Of a stretch of DNA of 64,000 bases, positions 2,544-64,000 are shown piece by piece; the first letter of the stretch is position 1; each line of letters starts with the position of its first letter. Source of the DNA: Sipunculus nudus. Taxonomy: Eukaryota > Annelida > Sipuncula > Golfingiida > Sipunculidae. Below the pieces are notes generated by a model. It was not told the DNA's origin. It made no database searches and saw nothing but the letters and a program-made list of their open reading frames with translations. The translations under genes and the position numbers were made by a program. The stretch is from assembly GCA_026874595.1 (NCBI GenBank), contig CM049309.1:50690079-50754078 (forward strand), written 5' to 3'.

Positions 2544-2679
2544 CCTGAAATGTCCTGTTCCACATGTTACGTGTGATGGCTTTGCCGTCAGTTGCGTTGC
2601 CTCCCTCTGACAGTGTTTTGTTGAGGGCCAATGCGTACAAAATGACGGCATCGTGAAAAGCGCCCACAAAGCTGTTCAC
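2544..2679 (-). CDS. NPR3-like: NPR3-like receptor, exon 4 (last exon in the window)
   Basis: The exon is 136 nt, begins in phase 0 and ends in phase 1. It encodes VNSFVGAFHDAVILYALALN and then KTLSEGGNATDGKAITRNMWNRTFQG. The FHDA-[IV]-[IL]-LY-x-LAL core and the closing W-N-R-[ST]-F-x-G motif are family signatures, and the first is especially close to NPR3. The acceptor is TTTTTATTCCGAAACAG before 2679 and the donor is TTTCAGG followed by GTATGT. Three sequons are present (NKT, NAT, NRT). I looked for the following block (a glycine-rich turn leading to an N-G-D-R-type motif) on the minus strand of 1-2543 and did not find it. The next exon must be outside the window. Confidence 0.92.
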
Positions 2680-10460: not shown

Positions 10461-11020
10461 GGACCAATACGGTAAATCACTCTTGAGAAAAGAGCATTAA
10501 TTTATTTTACGGAAACGGGAAGGTAATTTTCGCCACCTGTCTGGGTTACGAGAAAATTTTCCAAGATGAAAGACATGCCAAATTTAAGACCAATATCTTG
10601 AACCACTCCGGAGATATGAGCAATATTCACCCAAAGCACATGTAGAGATGGACGCCACGCCAAAATGATAGCAGATGGCGCCACCAGTCTTGAGTACAAG
10701 ATTGAGGAGTCCAAGATCTATAGATATGCACGATTTCAGGCCAATAGGGCAAATCGCTCCCCAGAAAAGGGCATTAATTTATTTTACAAGAACAGCAAGG
10801 TTAGTTGCGCCACCTGTCTGGTTTATAAGAAAACTTTCCAAGATTTGATGGACATGCCAAATTTCTGACCAATACCGTGAACCACTCCGGAGATATGAGC
10901 AAATATCACCGAAAGCAAACGTACGGATGGACGCCACACAATTACGATTGCAGATAGCGCCACCAGTCTTGAATACAAGATGGAAGTATCCAAGATCAAT
11001 GGATATGCACAATTTCAGCC
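10461..11020. repeat. Satellite, two copies of a ~277-bp unit
   Basis: GCATTAATTTATTTTAC recurs at 10494 and 10771, and the flanking words (CGCCACCTGTCTGG, CCACTCCGGAGATATGAGC, GGCGCCACCAGTCTTGA) recur in the same order. Identity is moderate by eye. The open frames across the unit appear to be incidental. Confidence 0.8.
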
Positions 11021-11023
11021 CGA

Positions 11024-11960
11024 TCTGTCCATTAGTTTTAGTCTTATAATGCTCACAGTACTGTCAAGTGGCAATGATGGGGTATTAGAGGGGGCGAAAA
11101 CAAGAAAAGGACAGAAGGTAGCGCCACCTGTCTTCCACAGAAGACAAAGCTATCCAACATCTTCGGTCAATTTGATTTTTGGACCAATCCATGCATCCGT
11201 TATTGAGATATTTATGATTTTGTGTGATTTTCACCATATATCGCAATATTCAAGGTCAAGGGCACACTCATAGGAAAGGTCATGCCCACAATTCAAATAT
11301 AATCATCCCATAACCTATGTCTATTTAGAGCATAATATGAAAGAAATCTGTCCATTAGTGTTTGACTTATAATGCTCACAGTACTGTAAAGTGGCAATAA
11401 TGGGGGTATTAAACGGCAGGAAAATAAGAAAAGGATAACAGGTGGAGCCACCAGTTTCCGGTACATGGCAACACTATCAAAGATCTTCGGTCAATTTGAT
11501 TTTTGGACCAATCCATGCATCCGTTATTGAGATATTTATGATTTTGTGTGATTTTCACCATATATCGCAATATTCAAGGTCAAGGGCACACTCATAGGAA
11601 AGGTCATGCCCACAATTCAAATATAATCATCCCATAACCTATGTCTATTTAGAGCATAATATGAAAGAAATCTGTCCATTAGTGTTTGACTTATAATGCT
11701 CACAGTACTGTAAAGTGGCAATAATGGGGGTATTAAACGGCAGGAAAATAAGAAAAGGATAACAGGTGGAGCCACCAGTTTCCGGTACATGGCAACACTA
11801 TCAAAGATCTTCGGTCAAGTTGATTTTTGGATCAATCCATGCAAGATTTCTTGAGATATTTAAGAATTTGTGTGATGTTTCCCAAAAATGGACTTATTCA
11901 AGGTCAAGATCACTCTCCTAGTAAAGGTCATGACCCCATTTTAAAAAGGCTTCGTCCTAT
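11024..11960. repeat. Satellite, about three copies of a 324-bp unit
   Basis: The word CTTCGGTCAA recurs at 11161 and 11485, and as CTTCGGTCAAG at 11809, each step 324 bp. TCTGTCCATTAG recurs at 11024, 11347 and 11671. Copies one and two are identical over long stretches, so the expansion is recent; copy three diverges after about 11820. The unit carries GACCAAT...GAGATAT...TTTTCACC, a layout also seen in the neighbouring 277-bp unit. The array runs into a phrase at 11979-12030 that resembles a repeat I recall as common in molluscs. Confidence 0.88.
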
Positions 11961-17206: not shown

Positions 17207-17402
17207 CTCTTCCTCGCCGTAGGTAAAGTTTTTGTGTTCATCTTCCGCTCGGCGTTTGACTTCCTCGGAGAACTTCCTGTATTCGTCACTGTCAGGTTTT
17301 CGTAATGTGACCGTCATGACGGCCTCGTAGGCCTCCTTCGCCTTCCGGTTCCTCTCCGGAGTATCCCCCTCCCGGTACCATGGACGCTCACTTTCATTTT
17401 TA
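17207..17402 (-). CDS. NPR3-like: NPR3-like receptor, exon 3
   Basis: The exon is 196 nt. Its first base completes a Ser codon from exon 2 and it ends exactly in phase 0. The product starts KNESERPWYREGDTPE and continues through AYEAVMTVTLRKPDSDEYRK to a charged end with NFTYGEEE. This matches the receptor stretch that runs from the W-x-R-G-D segment to the residues before the FHD motif. The acceptor is TATATATTTTCAG before 17402 and the donor is GAG followed by GTAGGC. Two N-glycosylation sequons are visible (NES, NFT). The charged KFSEEVKRRAEDEHK segment corresponds to the variable helix before the next conserved block. Confidence 0.92.
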
Positions 17403-28339: not shown

Positions 28340-29878
28340 CGTATGGGCAGAGGAGATATGCAACTTGATATCTCGATATAAGTAAAGGTTTTGATACAAT
28401 TAATCACTCTTTACTTTTGAGTAAACTCAGCCAGTTAGGCTTCACTGTAGAGACAATAGCCTGGTTTGTTGCTTAATTTAAAGATCGTGTTCAACTAGTG
28501 GGATGCAACCGGTAAAACTGTAAAGGCTCATACGATTAATACGGGGGTGCCCCAAGGTACTGTACTCGGCCCTATTCTCTTCCTTTTATATATTTATGAC
28601 GTTTTACATTATAAGACCTGCAAAATGTATTGCATACGCTGATGACACAACTGTCTATTGCCATGGAAATACAGTATCTGAGGTGCAGCAAAACTTACAA
28701 AATGCGGCCCATGTAGCTTGTAATTGGTTCGAATTAAAAAGATTAACTATTAACATTAACAAATCTTCTGTCATGCTGCAAGGTACTAGAAGTCGCGTTA
28801 ATAATCATAGTCTCTGTATCATTGCAAATGGTATTTCATTACAGGAACCTTCTCAAACTAACCTCCTGATGTGACCATAGATGCTATAATCTATCATGGC
28901 GCCCACATGAAACAGCCTTATGCGAAAATTATCATCGAATCTAGCACTTTTACATGGACTTTGTAACGTATTATCAATCAATACATTAAAAACAGTCTAC
29001 AGTACCACAATTCAACCACACACGACTACCCGGTTAGTGTGTGGGGCAAAATGAAAACGTCAGTATGCCAAACAAAGGTGCCAAAAAAAGAAGCAAAATC
29101 GTGCTGCACGTATAGTTACCAGCTGTTACCAAGCGCAACCATACTGAAAGAGCTACAATGGCTTACAGTTTCTAAAAGATGTGAATATGTTATATCATAT
29201 CAATTCTGATGCATGGATATGTACACATCTACAATCCCAATAATTTTACGTTTTCCAATGATATTCCCAACTATGTTACTAGATCTGCAGCAAGAGGCCC
29301 CTATTTCAGTGCAAAAAACCGAGAAATGAGTTCTACAAAAATAGCTTTTCATACCGAGGTCCTTCTGTTTGGAACTCATTACCTGAAGAAATCGGGTCTT
29401 TACAATCATTATCAACTTTCAAACGAAAGGTAAAAGCTTTCCCTATATTTTCTTAGCTTTGTATAATTAAAGAGAAACTTTGAATAACATTATCTTTTTA
29501 CTTTTCAAATGATCCCGTTTTAAAATCGCGACGTGCAGAGTATATTCTGATTATACTGTGTTTTATTCTTTTAACATATCCTTTTAAGTCATCTGAAACA
29601 CATTTTTGACGTGATTGAATAATTCGGTTACTTGTGATTTGTACTTAGGAACGGGTTTTTGCATTATGATATATATGCCATAAGTATTGTCTGATATGTA
29701 ATAGATCATATTTATGTACTTGTATAATTTGTCCGTTCACCATAAGAATATTGTATGTTTTATCATTTTATGTATATTTTATCTTATTGATAGTGCCCCG
29801 TGTATATACAATTTCTTATAACTGAACTTGTTACCCAGTATAAATATTTTTGAATAAAATAAAATAAAAAAAATAATA
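28340..29878 (+). pseudogene. Decayed non-LTR retrotransposon (LINE), reverse transcriptase and 3' end
   Basis: Reverse transcriptase motifs appear in order: a degenerate motif A (SKGFDTINHSLLLSKL, near 28385-28430, with stops nearby), motif B GVPQGTVLGPILFLLYIYD (28543-28600), motif C AYADDTTVY (YADD at 28635-28646, one frame away from motif B), and the usual C-terminal phrase SVWNSLPEEIGSLQSLSTFK near 29365-29425. Stops and frameshifts separate them, so it cannot make an active enzyme. An A-rich tail (AAATAAAATAAA type) closes it near 29878. Motifs fit the CR1/Jockey group. The 5' half (ORF1 and endonuclease) is absent, as in ordinary 5'-truncated insertions. Confidence 0.85.
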
Positions 29879-32658: not shown

Positions 32659-32770
32659 CTGCTAAACAGGTCGATATTGAAGAAGACGTATTCCCCATTG
32701 ACGAAGTTCAAATCATGGGCCTTCAACATAATCTCTCGAACCGATTCTTTGGATGCGCACAACACAACAA
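32659..32770 (-). CDS. NPR3-like: NPR3-like receptor, exon 2
   Basis: This 112-nt exon encodes VVVLCASKESVREIMLKAHD and then LNFVNGEYVFFNIDLFS. It corresponds to the segment of vertebrate receptors that starts with VVIMCAS and ends in YAFFNIELF. The acceptor is strong: a pyrimidine-rich run ending TTTCATTTCAG directly before 32770. The donor is CAG followed by GTGAGT. It begins with two bases completing the codon left by exon 1 (G plus TT gives Val), and protein alignment needs no further exon between them. The Cys in VVVLCAS is the expected partner of the Cys in exon 1B. It ends in phase 2. It was found by translation of the minus strand; it contains only an internal Met and so is easily missed by ATG-based ORF calling. 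Confidence 0.92.
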
Positions 32771-54100: not shown

Positions 54101-55833
54101 TAATATAGACGAATCACTCAGGTGGGCAGTATGCTCTTGCATACAAGTAGGGGTCAGGAAGTCCGGTCAGTAAATGAAGGTATAGGGCCTATTGGGTTTT
54201 AAGGGTGCAGATGTACCCGAAATCGTCACATAGCAAAAATGCAACCCTGAATTTAAATACAAAGGGCCTCCAGGACTATGGACATTGGTGCAGAGGTAAC
54301 TTATGACATGCCACGAGCTTATAATTATACGGAGGAAAAAATCAATATATTGTTTTACGGTGTTTAGTTGTAACTGCAATAATAGTTGTTTCTATCTAAA
54401 ATAGACGCCGGCTTTATATAACTGCTGATATGGACGGTTTAATATATGTATATCTGAACAAAATAAATTAAACAGACACAAATTTAAGAAAATTATTTAA
54501 TAATAATTTTACTAGAGTATTAGCCGAGAAATTAATTGCCATCAGTGGCGATCGTTCGTTTTGTTTTATCCATCTCTTTGCTTTTTTATATTAATACCTT
54601 CACACGTATATACTACAAACAGTTTTCCGAACTTGCAATGGAAAGAGGCATAGAAGCTTATATGTGCTTGTCAAAATAAAACTTAAGTATTTTATTTAAT
54701 TATATTAATTTCCTGCGGGTATATATTCACGCAATCAGAATATATTGACAGGTGTGTTCGGAGTTTACTAAGATGTCTGCTGAGGTGCTGTTTCATTGTT
54801 CATGTTTGTATAGGGGGTCACATGACAGCACCGGGGAGCTCTCACTGTGAGACTAATTGAGGAGTAACATTAGCAGACAAAAGCCTAGAAGGTTAGACTC
54901 TACTTAAATTTGGCCCTGTGGATATAATCCCAGACACCGGGATGACTGGCTGACAACATATAGAATGAACAGCTACTGGGGTTGAATCTATACAATTTCA
55001 GTGGCCAGTGCAAGCTACTCATAACCTTAATGCCTGTAGCTAATTTGGCCGTTCAGGAGGCTGTTATTGCATGGAAACACAAGCTGAGCTGTACATACAC
55101 ACTTCCGAATGCTGTATTGAAATAAATAAATATTTCGATAATACGATGACCTTGCCGGTACTCGTTTCCTGACCATACAGATTTTTCTGTTATAAACCAC
55201 TAAACCCCCTGACCAGTGAAGGATTATCACCACAAGCTGCAAGTGTTTGCTAATTAAACAAACCATGCCCGTTGGTCGAATTCCGACACTGGTGGGCTGG
55301 CCGGCTTTGTGTGCTGTTGGGCGATGTTTTGTACTCTTCTATAATGGCCGTTAAAGAGCTGTCCACTGTTTGTCGGTAAACAAGTACTTCTTGCTAGAAG
55401 TCTATTTCTGTTTATGATTATTGACTGTACTCCTAATGCTGACAGGGCCAAGATACTGGAACGTATATAATAACTACATATTCGTGTACACGGTAGTGTC
55501 ACAGCTGAATCCAGAGATGAACTGTTTTGTGAGTTCATCTGTGCCTGTTCCCAGGTGAAGAGAAAGTTGTGATCGAGCCAATATTTACGTTCAGTGTAAT
55601 CAGGTATAACAATATTGGTGTGTAGCCATTGTGAATAATCCACACCGGACAGCCATGTACGGCAATTAGTACTTTACACAGTTATAATGCGTCACGCTTA
55701 AATAGCAACTGTTCGCGTGGTAAAATTTGAATTTTTTTTTAAACCTTTTCCGCCCATAGTGTATGACTGTATACTTTGAAGTTTCACTTCAAAACATGTT
55801 ATTTATATTGCTGTTTATTATTATTATTAATAT

Positions 55834-55922
<89 letters not shown>
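55834..55922. repeat. Compound (TA)n (GA)n microsatellite at the edge of duplication unit A
   Basis: An interrupted TA tract (55834-55900) is followed by GA repeats (55901-55922). It marks the left edge of the exon duplication and may have taken part in the rearrangement. Confidence 0.95.
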
Positions 55923-55923
<1 letters not shown>

Positions 55924-56035
55924 CTCTAATTTACGAATTGTTTCTGAGACAAAATTTGTTCGGATAATTAAGGTTACGGATATGCGAAGTCGGACATTTA
56001 CTACTAACGTATTGGTATGTACGTTGGGAATATCA
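55922..56035. mobile_element. MITE, truncated copy in unit A
   Basis: This sequence corresponds to the left third of the MITE at 57807-58129 (shared phrases AATTTGTTCG, ATATGCGAAGTCGGACA, ACGTTGGGAATATCATTAT). The right part and right end are missing, so the element predates the duplication and was later shortened here, or was lost during it. Confidence 0.5.
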
Positions 56036-56419
56036 TTATATATATCATATGTAAGGTGTGTTAAAATTACATAACCTAGTATTGCACATGACACGTAAAG
56101 GACAATAACATTTATGTGCTTAACCTAGCCATCATTAATTATAAATCCATCAAACATTTTGATATTACTGTAAATACGTCACATTTATGTTTATATTTGA
56201 GTTTGAAATTTTTGTCCAAGACTCTTCAAGTCAGTATTGCATTAAGCAATTAAGCGCATTGATGTGTCCCGTTTTCAGAGATTACAGAAGGCATTTTATA
56301 CACGTTTTTCATTCAGAAAAATTCTGCCCAGAGAGATAACATTTTTTTTTAAATACATATCTAATGCTACATGTGTACGTCCGAGTGGTAATAAAATAAT
56401 TTAGCCGATTCAAACTTAC

Positions 56420-57128
56420 CTCGTGTGTTTAATGAAGCTTCTTTTAATAAGGGTTCGAACTGTTCATATGAATTTGCATAACCGGTTTCGAAATGTTTGT
56501 ACCATATTTGTTTTCCATCTATCGTCTTAATAAGATGAAACAAGGACTCCATGATAAAATGGCCGTAGTTCCAGCTAGTTTTTCCTCTGGTAGATGCTTC
56601 ATAGATAAGACCGGGGGTATACCACTTAAAATGGTACAGCAGGTCCCTAATACAAATAGCCAATTTGTCATATGTACCACCTATCCTCGTCAACAATTTA
56701 TATATATCTTTGTTGCTAAAGGCTTTGACCAGAGCACCCGCGGTGATCATGGGCAGGTCCCAAAACTGAATAAGTCGCGCGATAGGAGCCACCGCGTAGT
56801 CACAAGCTGGGCCAAATAACACGTTGGCTTCTTTGTTTAAATACATATCAATGCCATATAAAGGTCCAAAAGTGTCTGAACATTGCGAATCTTTGAATGT
56901 AGCTTCTATAGTAAACTGTGGTATTATTTCTCTCAACCTACTGCTGTTTCGTGCTATCTTAATGGCTTGCTTCGTCTGACCTAAACTCCATGGAAACGAG
57001 CGCTCCGCTGGTAAAATCACTCCAAGTTTAATTACGTATTTTCCGTTTTTGATGGGCAATGGTCCAAAATCCTTCTGACACCAGACCATTCCATAACACA
57101 AGAACGTAAGGTATAGTCCGGCTTGCAT
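56420..57128 (-). CDS. NPR3-like: NPR3-like receptor, alternative first coding exon 1A (tandem copy of 1B; conserved Cys replaced)
   Basis: This exon is the same length as 1B and 15 residues different, with an intact frame, the same candidate starts (ATG at 57128 or 57182) and the same donor (exon ends at 56420, CGAG before GTAAGT). It encodes a signal peptide followed by the N-terminal ANF-receptor lobe with GPACDYAVAPIARL and WDLPMITAGAL. Thirteen of the 15 replacements lie in the last ~100 residues. The most striking is SWNYGHF, with a Gly codon (GGC) at 56562-56564 where 1B and vertebrate relatives have Cys. A receptor built from 1A would therefore leave the exon 2 cysteine without its usual partner. 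Having its own start and signal peptide, 1A most likely serves as an alternative first exon. A non-functional copy is possible, but no stop or frameshift is seen. Confidence 0.88.
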
Positions 57129-57212
57129 GATGTTACATATCCGGTCCGACTGCCAGCGCGAAAGACTGTGAACGCACAGCATTATGGCCAAACACGGGCT
57201 GTTCTCAACCAC

Positions 57213-57787
57213 TGCATAAACACCTCTAACTCACCACCTAAACGTATAAGATTATCTTTCTCCAGCTTGCATAGGGGTAGAACAAGAAGCGGTAGGCTGG
57301 AATAGACTGTGGGCAGTGGAACCATCGTGGGCTGCCAGTAGTGTGGCAAGCCTGCTTACCTGGCTCCTATACTGCAATGTTTCCAGGGCTAGCGAACGCC
57401 AGCGTCATTATCAGTGCTAGCGACATCCTATGGACGCTGCCGGCTTCTCCCTGTGCGCTCGCCCTTAACCGTGTTCTTTTCAACCACGTACAAATCCCAA
57501 CGATGTAGTCAGCACACTATCTCAAAGTGATCGTTTCTCAGAGACGTCTGATCGCACCAACGCTCATACAACAACTGATCCGTTCGATTTCTCTTCTTGC
57601 CGCACATTTCGATAACTCTTAATGCGCAAGCGCGAGCAGATTCCGGCCAAGTGAAACCAACACGACTTTTGGTCCGAAGGGACCGTCTCCAATAACTCGA
57701 TATCATACTAATGTGGCGCACGGGGATTCCCGCAACAGATTAACACGTATGTGGTGGCATGCTGTCCCACACAACAGCTGTTAATTC
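57213..57787 (-). promoter_or_regulatory. Putative promoter / 5' UTR region of exon 1A
   Basis: This is the duplicate of the flank of exon 1B, with scattered substitutions. It also carries TGCGCAAGCGCG (57623-57634). Because the flank was copied together with the exon, each copy could have its own start site. No direct evidence of transcription is available. Confidence 0.35.
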
Positions 57788-57806
57788 TTAATTAGCTGTT
57801 TATATA

Positions 57807-58129
57807 TATATAGAACCCCGAATATACGAATGGTTTGGGGGATATAAAATTTGTTCGAATAATTGAGGTTACCGATATGCGAAGTCGGACACTTTTTCAA
57901 GAAGTATACTACTAATACGTTGAAATGTACGTTGGGAATATCATTATCAACGTTCCACAAGTATGGTAATATTGGCATGAACTGCGGTTATCTCATCAGC
58001 TAATTTTTAATCACCGTGAATCCATTTTCCTTTAAAAAGCAGCGAAGCATTTAATAGAAGTAAATTTCCGTTCTTAACTTTCAATTTCGGAAAAAAAGAG
58101 ATACGGAAATTCGAGGTTCTACTGTAAAT
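57807..58129. mobile_element. MITE, pogo/Tigger-like (full-length copy)
   Basis: The left end reads TAGAACCCCGAATATACGAA. The right end, GAAATTCGAGGTTCTACTGTA, is its approximate inverted repeat. The body has the typical TTCGAATAATTGAGGTTACC phrase. About 320 bp, with no coding capacity. The family name rests on the ends only. It sits in intron 1 of the B unit. Confidence 0.55.

Positions 58130-58133
<4 letters not shown>

Positions 58134-58179
<46 letters not shown>
58134..58179. repeat. (TA)n microsatellite beside the MITE
   Basis: 23 TA units immediately after the right end of the MITE in unit B. Confidence 0.95.
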
Positions 58180-58182
<3 letters not shown>

Positions 58183-58543
58183 CATATGCAAAGGTATGTT
58201 AAAGTTATATGACCTAGTATTGCACATGACACGTATAGAACAAAATTTATGTGCTTGACCTAATCATTAATTATAAACCAATCAAACATTTAATATTTGT
58301 AAATAAGTCACATTTATGTTTTATATTTGAGTTTGAAATTTGTATTCAAGACCATACAACTCAGTATTCAATTAGGCAAATAAGCGCATTGTTGTCCCCT
58401 TTTTTCAGAGATAACAGAAGGCGGTTTATTCACGTTTTTCAGTCAAAACATTCTGCCCAGTAATAACATTTCTAAAATACATATATAATGCTACATGTGT
58501 ACGTCCAAGTGGTAATAAAATAATTGAGCTGATTCAAACTTAC

Positions 58544-59252
58544 CTCGTGTGTTTAATGAAGCTTCTTTTAATAAGGGTTCGAACTGTTCAAATGAGTTTG
58601 CATAACCGGTTTCGAAGTGTTTGTACCATACTGTTTTTCCATCTTTCGACTTAATAAGATGAAACAAGGACTCCATGATAAAATGGCAGTAGTTCCAGCT
58701 ATTTTTACCTCTTGGAGATCCATCATAGATAAGGCCGGGGGTATACCACTTAAAATAATACAGCAGGCCCCTAATACAAATAGCCAACTTGTCATATGTA
58801 CCACCTATCCTCGTCAACAATTTATATATATCTTTGTCGCTAAAAGCTTTGACCAGAGCACCCGCGGTGATCATGGGCAGGTCCCAAAACTGAATAAGTC
58901 GCGCGATAGGAGCCACCGCGTAGTCACAAGCAGGGCCAAATAACACGTTGGCTTCTTTGTTTAAATACATATCAATGCCGTATAAAGGTCCATAAGTGTC
59001 TGAACATTGCGAATCTTTGAATGTAGCTTCTATAGTAAACTGTGGTATTATTTCTCTCAACCTACTGCTGTTTCGTGCTATCTTAATGGCTTGCTTCGTC
59101 TGACCTAAACTCCATGGAAATGAGCGCTCCGCTGGTAAAATCACTCCGAGTTTAATTACGTATTTTCCGTTTTTGATCGGTAATGGTCCAAAATCCTTCT
59201 GACACCAGACCATTCCATAAAACAGGAACGTAAGGTATAGTCCGGCTTGCAT
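58544..59252 (-). CDS. NPR3-like: NPR3-like receptor, alternative first coding exon 1B (signal peptide and N-terminal ligand-binding lobe)
   Basis: The exon encodes the secretion signal and most of the membrane-distal half of the ectodomain. The proposed start is the ATG at 59252, which opens a compact signal peptide (MQAGLYLTFLFYGMVWCQ). The frame is open back to 59336, with another in-frame ATG at 59306 that would give an 18-residue N-terminal extension. Family hallmarks are the start of the fold (YVIKLGVILPAE), a first disulfide pair (C in KDSQCSD and C in GPACDYA) and the signature GPACDYAVAPIARL followed by WDLPMITAGAL. The motif SWNYCHF, with its Cys codon at 58686-58688, keeps the cysteine that pairs with VVVLCAS of exon 2 in vertebrate receptors. 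There is one NSS sequon. The exon ends in CGAG before GTAAGT (phase 1), which fits exon 2. It lies 2124 bp upstream of its tandem copy 1A. Confidence 0.9.
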
Positions 59253-59336
59253 AATGTTACATATCCGGTCCGACTGCCAGCGCGAAAGACTGTGAACGCA
59301 CAGCATTATGGCCAAACACGGGCTGTTCTCAACCAC

Positions 59337-59909
59337 TGCATAAACACCTCTAACTCACCACCTAAACGTACAAGATTATCTTTCTCCAGCGTGCATTGGA
59401 TAAAACAAGAAGTGGTAGTCTGGAACAGACTGTGCGAAGTGGAACCATCGTGGGCTGCCAGTAGTGTGGCGAGCCTGCTTACCTGGCTCCTATACTGCAA
59501 TGTTACCAGGGCTAGCCAACGCCAGCGTCGTTATCAGTACTAGCGACAACCTATGGACACCACCGGCTTATCCCTGTGCGCCGGCCTTTACCCGTGTTCT
59601 TTTCAACCACGTACAAATCCCAACGATGTAGTCAGCACACTATCTCAAAGTGATCGTTACTCAAAGACATCTGATCGCACCTACGCTCATAGAACAACTG
59701 ATTCGCTCGATCTCTCTTCTTGTCGCACATTTCGATAACTCTGAATGCGCAAGCGCGAGCAGATTCCGGCCAAGTGAAACCAACACGACTTTTAGCCTGA
59801 AGGGACCGTCTCCAATAACCCGATATCATACTAATGTGGCGCACAGGGATTCACGCAACAGATTAACACGTATGTGGTGGCATGCTGTCCCACACAACAG
59901 CTGTTAATC
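59337..59909 (-). promoter_or_regulatory. Putative promoter / 5' UTR region of exon 1B
   Basis: This flank directly precedes exon 1B and is duplicated with it. It is richer in G+C than the surrounding introns. It contains TGCGCAAGCGCG at 59746-59757, one base off the palindromic NRF-1 consensus. I see no convincing TATA box at a fixed distance from the start. An out-of-frame ATG lies just upstream of the coding frame. Calling it a promoter is inference from position. Confidence 0.35.
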
Positions 59910-60322
59910 GTGTGTTGAGTTAACATAAAAGATCAAAGTCGAACGCTCGGCCCCGCATGATGCCCACACCGTGTTTTAGGCGGGATAGAACACCGTGATC
60001 AATTACCAATTCGATACAGCTTTGTAGACTTTCGACCAACCAGTGGACCCGATCGAGCTAGCATGGCGATAAACAGCCCATATGGCTCGAGGCTATTTGC
60101 CAAAAGTGCTTGTCCATGCACGGAATTTCTTCAGCAGGGCACCAGACAGTGAAAGACCCGCTAAACAAGTGGCGACCATGAAAGGAGCCGATATTTCACT
60201 CAAGCGAGAGAGTGTATTAAACTGGTTAGCAGGCCTTTGGTCGTTCATTTCAACAATGAGATTAGCATACAGATCTCTTCATGTTCCCACTCATCCCCGC
60301 CCTTGTCGCAGCGACAGAGGCC

Positions 60323-60324
<2 letters not shown>

Positions 60325-60385
<61 letters not shown>

Positions 60386-60446
60386 ATATACACACACACA
60401 CACAGATGGAGGGGGGGGGGGGGGGGGAGAGGGAGGGAGAGAGAGA
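60325..60446. repeat. Compound (TA)n-(CA)n-G17-(GA)n microsatellite
   Basis: TA units 60325-60382, CA units around 60390-60404, an uninterrupted G run 60411-60427, then GA-rich sequence. Confidence 0.95.
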
Positions 60447-60515
60447 GGTACGTACCGCGTGAGGTTACAGAAAAGATAATACAGCGGGAATGAAATATTG
60501 AGCTAAGGTGCGTTC

Positions 60516-60520
<5 letters not shown>

Positions 60521-60549
<29 letters not shown>
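60521..60549. repeat. (CA)n microsatellite
   Basis: Fourteen AC units. Confidence 0.95.
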
Positions 60550-60551
<2 letters not shown>

Positions 60552-60873
60552 CACTACCACTCAATCTGCTAATATATTACCTATGCTGAGGAGGTTATGT
60601 TTTCAACCCTTTTTATTCTAAAAATAGTTGCTTGATTTCTTTGTTTGACTTATCGCTTTTTCTGTGGCTGTCTGTTAGTAGTTCTATGTAAAAAGGCACT
60701 AAGCCAATTTCGATAAACTGAGCAGCGCCAGGGAAGAGCAAATTACATTTTGGTGTGGATCTCGATGAAGGGGCTCAGCTGCATATATATAGTTTGAGTT
60801 GTTTTGCCTTGAGTGTCTTCTAGTTTATAGTGTGTCTTAAACTTGTGGCACACGTGGGACGGTTTAAGTCTAT

Positions 60874-60874
<1 letters not shown>

Positions 60875-60909
<35 letters not shown>
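60875..60909. repeat. (TAA)n microsatellite
   Basis: Eleven to twelve TAA units. Confidence 0.95.
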
Positions 60910-61464
60910 TCAAAATATTAACAATAAAAATAATAATGGAATAGTATTAATAAAGATAATTATTAAAATAAAATGCAGTTTCTGAAACTAGTTGTATATC
61001 TGATTTAATTAGTTATGTACAAAAAGAAATGCACTTCGCAGTGTGAAGTAATTACTTTCAATATCTAAATGAAAGAATTAAATCGTTTTGATATCGAAAA
61101 GGCCGGTTTTCCCAAAACACCTATCGCTCCTCTACGTAAGGTATCTGACTATTGTATATAATATAACTTATAAGACATATAATCAAGACGTTACATAAGG
61201 ACCACAGAGCTTTTGCTTAGTTTTAAGGAAGTTTCAAAGCACCGAACTATTTCAAAGAATTAAGAATAAATAATACTTTATTTTCTGTAGTGTCCTTATT
61301 TTTAATCTCATGTGTTAATAACTAGCACACCTTGTGTCTTTAATTGAAGCCTCGGTTGTACTCCAGTTTTAGAAAACAACCACCTCCTGGAAGCAGGCTA
61401 ATTTACCACATGGACGGATTAAGGACCGACCTAGCTCCATTTATTTAGGCCATTTTTGACCCAA

Positions 61465-61523
61465 GATATATATATATATATACATATATACATAGATATA
61501 TATATATATACATATATACATAC
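61465..61523. repeat. (TA)n / TACATA imperfect microsatellite
   Basis: A TA run interrupted by TACATATATACATA, itself repeated twice. Confidence 0.9.
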
Positions 61524-64000
61524 GAAAGTGCTTGCACACCATGCGATATAATTTTATATGTTTCGATAAAAATATATATGATCAGGGAAAAGCATGAAAA
61601 TTACATAATTGTTTTGGTAAACAGGTAAAAGAACTAAATAACGAGGGAAATCTGATCAAAATTGTATTATTAGTTTATCATCTTAACAGATGAAAATAAA
61701 AATAATTATTTTTATGCGGGGCGGGGGTGGGGGGGTTAAAATTGGCGCGGGCGGTCCCTGAGAACCATACCTTTTTGGCCTCAACACATCTTTTTGAAAG
61801 CATCTTCTCTTTTATTGTACCTATGTTTTAACGATTTTGTATTTTGTTTGTGTTTCAAGCTGCACACAAGGAATGAAAATGAGCGGAACTGACGGTTTAC
61901 TGGGTCCTTTATATTTCACTATTTTCACGATTAATAACATGAGATGGTGACACATTTCATACTCGTTAATGACATGTGACAGTTCTTGCCGATCCATGTC
62001 ACGCTCCAAAGTATTGTTTGACGCAATGAAAACGTTTCCTGCGTTTTTTTTTTTTTTTCACGATAAATGTCGATGACTTTCCTTTTATATGTGATGTTGA
62101 AGGTACGCATGCATTTTGTTTATTCACAGCCTTTTTTACTTGTTCTTTTCCCTGTATTGTTTTGTGCCCTTATTTTTATAGGTTTCCGGGGTTTTTTATT
62201 TCATTGCGTGAGAACGTATAAAACTTCATTTAAGAACCGCACATTAAAATGACAGATTCCTGACGTTACAAAGCCAACGGTCAAGTAACAGATTCCACAG
62301 AGCGAAGACGGTCTGCGTGCCGTGGCAGCGAATGGTAGGAAAACACATGGCAAATCTTTTTCATTTGTCGCAAGATCAATACTGCATTAGAAGACCATTT
62401 ATGGGTGGACCCGTGTAAAGACTGGCGTTATTACTGCGGAGTACCACACAATAAACAAGGGTGGGATAAATCAGCAGGAATGGCAATTTCTGATGTACGG
62501 TCCTTCAAGTTTACACCACATGCTTCACGTGGCAATTACATCTTGGGGGCTTTTATGACAATGCATGGGGCTTTAACGAAACCAGTTAGGCGCCGCAGTA
62601 TTGGTCATCGCCAATCTTTAGGGCTTCCACGAACCTGTAACCAGTGCCACGTTAACACCTCACGCAACTCTCTCTTAATAATCTCATGTTCCTACTCCAG
62701 GTATTTCTAAGGATAAATAGAGTCCTATATACTCAACAGCAAATTGAGTCAAGCTGCTTTGGAACAGGATATGTTTTAAGCAGGGTTGTGTGGTTTCTAA
62801 ATGTGGGAAAGCCCAGCTGTACTGTTGCATTCACTATGAATCAATAAACTGGTTGTAGAAAAAAAAAACTCCGGGACATATGATTGCGTATAAACTAATA
62901 GTATATTGACTAGACTGGGATATAAATACAACAAAATAATTATGCTTTAATGGTTGGCGTTACGTTTCCATGGCAATGTGAGGATACCAGCGTTGGTTAT
63001 GTTGATAACTTGCGTTGTTAGGCGTGTGCTGCATTTAAATTAAGTCTCACAATACACCGAAGAGTACCAGTCACTTACAACAGAGCTTGCCAACTAAGCG
63101 ATGCAAGCAAAGTTAAACAGGAAATTATATATGTTAAGTTGGTTAGAGGTTTTATGAATATGAAATTACATGGAAACAGAATGATTGACAGGAACCCCGC
63201 CCACCGGGCCACACGGTAATGGGTTCGCTGCAATCACACCTGCCCGTGTATGCCTCTTCAGGTGACGGCTGGTTCGGCCTCTTTAACAAGCAACAAGAGA
63301 CAGGGAAGACAGGTATTATTAGACATGCTAAATCCAGACATGGTGTCCACACCTTCAGACAAATCCCCAGGTTTACGTGTAATGACTGCTGTAAGATGCT
63401 GGCACCTGGTCTCTGCTATTAAGGTGTTATACCGGATTTGTTCACTGACCACAAGCACCTTCTCTTGATAACAAAAGAATTCAGAGTTTCTGTGCTGAGG
63501 GAGGCTGGCAGCCGGTACACCTACAGTGCATGACACGAAGACAAAATAAGTATGTGTTAGAAATACAAAAAGAAAATATCGTGTCCTCAGTCAAATGCGT
63601 GACACTTCATTGTCCGAGGTATTTGAAGATTCAGGCGAGTTTGGGTCTGATTTCTTGTAATTAAGTAATCAATGCGCGACCCATAATTAAATCATTATAA
63701 AAACCTATTATATGACGCATAAGGACAGAGGAATTTTCCCGAACACAATATAAAATCAGTTTTATTCTTCCCATCTTTAAGAAACTTTAAGATGAATCGC
63801 TGAGAGGGAAGATGGGTTGTTGATCTTCTTAACATCTGCACCAGTAATTCTCCTTTGCAAAATGCACCTGGGAAACCCTGAGTTCACTTGAATCTTATCG
63901 TTCATGTACAAAACCATATGACCGGAACTTTACTGAGTTTACCAATCAGATTATGTTCTTGAGTAATTGTTAACCGTCTGGTAATAGGTGTATATTTCCA

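Follow-up and report, generated by a model that had tools for sequence, protein, structure and literature searches.

A probable set of alternative first exons for one receptor guanylyl cyclase gene in Sipunculus nudus

The stretch of DNA analysed here (the window) is 64 kb of the Sipunculus nudus genome, positions 50690079-50754078 of contig CM049309.1 (C4 below; the genome comprises 1.43 Gb in 153 contigs), and it carries on its minus strand the 5' part of a gene for a probable NPR-like receptor guanylyl cyclase in which the first coding exon is present as a tandem pair. A preliminary description of the window had suggested that the locus encodes two receptors that share everything from exon 2 onward. 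By its sequence that is still the best reading of the local anatomy, but there appears to be a larger set, with the pair at its proximal end: eight homologous first exons lie in tandem on one strand of C4, each with a start codon and a donor of compatible phase, and, within the sensitivity of our searches, a single set of constant exons lies downstream of them. We consider it probable that one receptor guanylyl cyclase body is shared by at least eight alternative first exons, and that the tandem pair is the proximal and youngest part of this array. The exons of the gene that lie within the window are as follows.

58544..59252, minus strand: exon 1, upstream copy (236 codons plus 1 nt; start of the ANF_receptor domain, PF01094 E 4.7e-18)
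56420..57128, minus strand: exon 1, downstream copy (Gly at position 189; PF01094 E 9.4e-18)
32659..32770, minus strand: exon 2, constant (Cys aligned with NPR-A Cys213)
17207..17402, minus strand: exon 3, constant
2544..2679, minus strand: exon 4, constant (PF01094 match, E 3.3e-4)

Exons 2, 3 and 4 have AG/GT borders and continue the phase of exon 1; a paralogous locus on another contig (C3) served to locate exons 5 and 6, which lie ~2.2 and ~19 kb to the left of the window, and exon 6 carries the juxtamembrane cysteine motif, reading PPPDVPKCGFNGSGC. The assembled ectodomain of 461 residues matches NPR-A at E 1.8e-81 (residues 35-455) and NPR-C at E 2.9e-73 (residues 33-437), and Cys83 and Cys109 of exon 1 align with NPR-A Cys60 and Cys86; the disulfide pairs that PMC4049422 gives for NPR-A include Cys60-Cys86 and Cys164-Cys213. 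Typical guanylyl cyclase exons are found on the same strand at 50.618-50.620 Mb, ~70 kb left of the window and ~50 kb past exon 6, and from order and strand we infer that exon 6 is joined to them. The protein is probably a receptor guanylyl cyclase of the NPR-like kind, for which peptide binding and cyclic GMP production would be predicted; a structure prediction reached a pLDDT of 39.6 and was not used.

Searched at the protein level with exons 1-4, the whole genome returned 15 matches, namely the three exon 1 sequences already known (the tandem pair and that of the C3 paralog), six of exons 2-4, and six new first exons. The latter are confined to the minus strand of C4, at 50.825-50.826, 50.834, 50.880, 50.948, 50.989 and 51.034 Mb, and together with the tandem pair at 50.749 and 50.747 Mb they bring the homologous first exons on this contig to eight. 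The six distant exons are 26-34% identical in the matched part, ~21-28% identical to the window exons and 20-51% identical to one another. They are open over 243-285 codons between stops, PF01094 matches all six (E 1.3e-24 to 2e-13), and in each of them a hydrophobic stretch, as judged by hydropathy only (2.2-2.75 for the best 11 residues), comes after an in-frame Met. Phase-1 donors of the form GT[AG]AG, at homologous positions, were found by script in eight of the nine exon loci (six distant, two tandem and one on C3), and the ninth (L026) has GCAG/GTAAAC, phase 1 by eye; the phase at the start of exon 2 matches these donors. Judged by sequence identity, the tandem pair is the latest addition to the putative array. 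First exons have probably been duplicated locally on more than one occasion, since the neighbouring exons L027 (C4:50833684-50834157) and L030 (C4:50825544-50825954), 51% identical and 7.7 kb apart, form a second, older pair.

When exons 2-6 were used as a genome query with matches accepted up to E 10, 22 matches were obtained, five in this gene, five in the C3 paralog and 12 on other contigs, and there was nothing elsewhere on C4. Because a cyclase match is found within ~105 kb of nine of these 12 (and two of the 12 overlap PF01094 matches), this search does reach distant receptor-type loci. Profile searches were run on the genome as well, with 115 of 138 candidates scored for PF01094 and 150 of 154 for PF00211. 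PF01094 gave 79 matches, those between 50.6 and 51.1 Mb of C4 being eight to the N-terminal part and one, window exon 4, to the C-terminal part, and PF00211 gave 127, with two adjacent pieces in the same interval, at 50.618-50.619 Mb, and its remaining C4 matches at 50.01 Mb. Direct reading of C4 50813987-50835636 (21,650 bp, containing two first exons) found no likeness to exons 2-6 better than E 0.087, and as a control of sensitivity an NPR-A stretch (chain 1dp4_A) picked up the constant exons of the window gene, five of five, with E values of 2e-4 to 2e-12. The hint at E 0.087, exon-6-like and located at C4 50818663, lies between stops, does not have the exon 6 motif and was taken as chance. 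Between the first exon at 50.834 Mb and the next one, then, no body that could belong to the former is detectable.

These searches bear on the alternative that exon 2 is used by the tandem pair alone, or by just one of its copies, and that the six others belong to separate, cyclase-less NPR-C-like genes whose later exons have diverged. Such genes would agree with the low identity (only ~21-28%) of the six exons to the two in the window, and they could have been passed over where direct reading covers a small part of 300 kb and exons 2-6 are short. On the other side, the search up to E 10 that had weak matches on C2, C6, C7, C10, C12, C14 and C16 had none in the array stretch, and 21.65 kb around two of the first exons shows no constant exon; we regard separate genes as unlikely.

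The tandem pair proved largely as first described. Both exons are 709 nt long and open, their starts are 2124 bp apart, both end in the donor CGAG/GTAAGT in phase 1, the phase that exon 2 needs, and each has its own ATG and a hydrophobic, signal-like N-terminus. GAGGTAAGT has no further occurrence on either strand of the 64-kb window. The common flank said to precede them is also present on both copies, but in the alignment it measures ~656 bp and not ~570 bp. The duplicated unit includes these further features.

59253..59908, minus strand: sequence 5' of the upstream exon copy, presumably its leader and promoter; copied along with the exon
57129..57785, minus strand: sequence 5' of the downstream exon copy, presumably its leader and promoter; copied along with the exon
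57812..58124, minus strand: intronic element with imperfect terminal inverted repeats of the CAGTAGAACCTCG... type, at the 3' end of the upstream unit (borders by eye)
57786..57811, minus strand: duplication seam, with AAACAGC, a short filler and the unit start ATTAACAGC (by eye)

In one gapped alignment 59908-58166 matches 57785-56030 head to tail at 92.4% over 1762 columns (E = 0), and further matching pieces extend the unit to ~57810 and ~55815-55930, for a length of ~2.1 kb. AACAGC stands on either side of the filler at the seam and also at both outer edges of the unit. The flanks diverge by 1% in the last ~100 bp before the exon and by 6-9% beyond, and the introns by 11-16%. The intronic inverted-repeat element, which we take to be like a miniature inverted-repeat transposable element (MITE), is probably older than the duplication, because its right part is present within the downstream unit too. 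The duplication of the first exon is real and far above chance.

A whole-genome DNA search with exon 1 found three places, the two tandem copies and, on a further contig of chromosome size, C3:64068762-64069470 (91%). The C3 paralog (C3:64049937-64079963; L004, L005, L008 and L009) has exons 1-6 in collinear order; only one exon 1 is present there, intron 1 is much shorter, the homology continues into the sequence upstream of exon 1, and the nearest cyclase match on C3 is only at 81.1 Mb. Its 5' flank is broken ~350 bp before the ATG by an insertion of ~4.6 kb with a possibly THAP-like open reading frame. Assemblies can fail near (TA)n and repeats, and the duplicated unit breaks near (TA)n and the intronic repeat, as it might if the assembler had put two haplotypes of one exon in tandem. 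However, a synonymous divergence (dS) of 0.11 and the 11-16% divergence of the introns are high for alleles, the contigs are chromosome-sized (C4 is 97.5 Mb), the window compared with itself contains no further tandem copy of kilobase size but only an array of ~0.3-kb units, the paralogous C3 locus has one exon 1, and the tandem copies are each other's sisters by distance. Between them, the divergence and the whole-genome DNA search largely dispose of the earlier concern about a false duplication, and we hold such an artefact to be very improbable.

Translation most likely starts at the MQAG at 59252/57128, as judged by comparison with the C3 paralog. A longer N-terminus from the in-frame ATG at 59306/57182, which lies 54 nt further upstream, was rejected because C3 has no such ATG. 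Constraint on the leader, considered for a perfectly matched run of ~116 bp before the ATG, was also set aside, the chance probability being 0.09 and the C3 paralog differing there. A noncoding exon ending in CAG/GTAAGC in each flank was discarded as well, the C3 paralog being without that donor; it survives only as part of the alternative that the tandem copies are internal, mutually exclusive exons behind a common noncoding first exon and are chosen by splicing. For this there are, besides the donor in both flanks, candidate AG sites before the ATG, one pair of which, at 59420/57297, has 0.72 pyrimidine. We think it quite unlikely: the flank donor is missing from the C3 paralog, ~656 bp of 5' flank was copied with the unit, and the tract of the shared acceptor candidate closest to the ATG is weak (0.61 pyrimidine and 0.28 T, versus 0.67-0.83 and 0.44-0.67 at the acceptors of exons 2-4). 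Only three of the 48 AG sites before the downstream ATG would keep the reading frame through both exons. The CpG profile of the tandem pair gave no clear promoter signal, and no match was found in an Rfam scan of window positions 55000-64000, an NCBIfam scan or a viral contig scan.

The preliminary description had the two copies differing in most of the outer ligand-binding lobe, which was an overstatement: they differ at only 15 of 236 residues (6.4%; 94% identical), 12 of these at residues 162-221. Pairwise dS is 0.108 and nonsynonymous divergence (dN) 0.029, and dN/dS is 0.27 over the whole exon; with a cut at residue 155 that was picked after the data were seen, it is 0.09 for residues 1-155 and 0.52 for residues 156-236. 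Residues 1-155 do not fit a model that lets one copy drift and holds the other constant (rejected at P = 0.006), and nonsynonymous and synonymous changes differ in mean position (one-sided P = 0.016). By this pattern of substitution, residues 1-155 of the tandem pair are under purifying selection. Alternatively, the six upstream exons, with perhaps one tandem copy, might be orphans without a product, left behind by gene duplications. They are without a detected body of their own, and the C3 locus, with exons 1-6 and its nearest cyclase match at 81.1 Mb, suggests that partial copies do occur. Purifying selection in residues 1-155 of the tandem pair speaks against orphans, as do six exons that are open over 243-285 codons and keep their donors despite 20-51% mutual identity, and we judge this explanation improbable.

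With C3 as a third sequence, 13 of the 15 amino acid differences fall on the branch of the upstream copy and two on that of the downstream copy. Nucleotide changes could be placed as 14 nonsynonymous and 6 synonymous on the upstream branch, 2 and 6 on the downstream branch and 24 and 16 on that of C3, counts that leave out 3 positions at which all three sequences differ; the upstream and downstream branches are distinguishable by Fisher's test (P = 0.044). Noncoding differences are 0.094 between the upstream and downstream copies, 0.162 between upstream and C3 and 0.132 between downstream and C3. Since the tandem copies are thus sisters by distance, their duplication looks younger than the C3/C4 split, a relation that assumes rough clock-likeness and has C3 as its deepest outgroup.

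The variable sites include a cysteine. Cys189 of the upstream copy aligns with NPR-A Cys164, and exon 2 supplies the position of its partner, Cys213. The downstream copy and C3 both have Gly at position 189, and exon 2 keeps the Cys213-aligned Cys. Among the six distant first exons, L021, L024 and L027 have Cys at this position, as do NPR-A and NPR-C, and L025, L026 and L030 have none. Loss of the cysteine in the downstream copy was considered first, but the C3 outgroup has Gly too, and parsimony over the three copies places the change on the upstream branch; Cys189 of the upstream copy may represent a regain, a conversion from a Cys-bearing exon, or parallel loss elsewhere. More generally, NPR-A contacts from a docking study (PMC9699598) coincide with 6 of 13 alignable variable sites versus 27 of 184 other positions (P = 0.010), where 2 of the 15 variable sites are unalignable and the contact list is part of the tables of that paper. 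Within residues 156-236 alone the enrichment has P = 0.17, and an enrichment of variable sites at NPR-A contacts is suggestive only.

Several points weigh against the reading of the locus as an array that feeds one body. The model with one copy free is marginal over all 236 residues (P = 0.082) and is not rejected for residues 156-236 (P = 0.65), and when the choice of the cut, made after the data were seen, is allowed for, clustering of the nonsynonymous changes has P = 0.064. Noncoding changes are also more numerous on the upstream branch (33 vs 16, P = 0.021), so that part of the upstream excess may be rate or conversion, and the asymmetry in amino acids (13/15) does not differ significantly from that in noncoding sequence (33/49; P = 0.20). 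Four of the eight C4 first exons are without Cys at position 189, and their isoforms would have an unpaired Cys213 because exon 2 would be common to all. Only a minority of the cyclase loci contribute to the 12 matches of exons 2-6 on other contigs, and these matches are weak, at E 9.5e-4 to 9.7; as the searches are heuristic and distant matches weak, diverged constant exons could be missed. Among the constant ectodomain exons of the window gene PF01094 detects exon 4 only (E 3.3e-4), and the stretch read directly lies outside 50.764-50.814 Mb (~50 kb) and most of 50.836-51.03 Mb. Finally, the promoters and splicing of the array are predictions from genomic DNA.

In the arrangement that we favour, transcription would start ahead of one first exon, the nearer first exons downstream of it would be skipped because they have no good splice acceptor, and the chosen exon would be spliced to exon 2. 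The isoforms would have a common body, membrane part and cyclase, the differences between them lying in the first lobe and in part of the second. A ~2.1-kb duplication that followed the separation of the C4 and C3 loci would have given rise to the tandem pair, of which the downstream copy would then have stayed conservative while the upstream copy changed, mainly at residues 162-221; the latter carries the cysteine that would complete an NPR-A-like Cys164-Cys213 pair. Natriuretic-type receptors bind their peptide between two ectodomains, so mixed dimers with composite binding sites can be imagined. A bolder proposal, that this is a UGT1A- or protocadherin-like locus in which at least eight promoters choose among ligand-binding first exons and mixed dimers give combinatorial specificities for hormones or sensory signals, is possible, and we put it forward only tentatively and with some doubt.

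Other features were noted nearby. Window positions 10464-11945 hold a tandem repeat array with copies of ~280-325 bp, 80-91% alike, and a reverse transcriptase fragment in intron 2 (28524-28874, plus strand; PF00078 E 1.2e-5, below the curated cut-off) is a probable relic of a long interspersed element (LINE). In the cyclase search, the small contigs C61-C66, C69, C71-C75, C89 and C90 had repeated matches with identical or near-identical scores; these lie in long uninterrupted frames of 493-834 aa (one partial, in a 709-aa frame), whereas most large contigs have split exons, and the small contigs are perhaps from a multi-copy prokaryotic associate or contaminant.

The gene resembles NPR-A, NPR-B and NPR-C in its ectodomain, in the Cys60-Cys86 positions, in the juxtamembrane cysteine motif and, if the downstream cyclase exons belong to it, in its cyclase domain. 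Among the titles and abstract openings listed by our search of the literature (open-licence PubMed Central), none had a variable-first-exon array in receptor guanylyl cyclases. Were the array real, it would mean diversification inside one gene by exchange of the binding lobe, giving many receptors with different binding surfaces, and each isoform would test recognition by a variable lobe against a constant signalling body. The tandem pair is a natural near-isogenic comparison of 15 residues, one of them at the position of a conserved disulfide cysteine, and the isoforms might be marked in part by the presence or absence of one disulfide. According to PMC6878697 the ligands of non-vertebrate natriuretic receptor orthologs are mostly unknown, and PMC4883820 reports that receptor guanylyl cyclases are numerous in some lineages, with 23 in Crassostrea gigas.

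Protocadherins and sDscam are adhesion molecules, and Drosophila Gr39a belongs to an unrelated chemoreceptor family. As described in PMC4835542, clustered protocadherins and chelicerate sDscam have 5' arrays of ectodomain exons, all under promoters of their own and spliced to constant exons, a layout that our putative array would share, but the sDscam cassettes consist of two or four exons. In Gr39a, as PMC2204066 presents it, large alternative exons are joined to small shared ones, with duplication and loss of exons and weaker purifying selection in the duplicated exons. The Drosophila gene hydra provides a precedent for duplicated initial exons that have a transposable element at their flank (PMC9013439). 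UGT1A differs in encoding an enzyme and in having established promoters and transcripts, whereas here the product is a receptor and both are predicted. In the accounts of PMC9013439 and PMC1885805 the UGT1A first exons are used in a mutually exclusive way, each from its own promoter, and the likeness would lie in the plan of the gene: tandem homologous first exons encode the N-terminal, substrate-binding part of the protein and are joined to one common set of exons.

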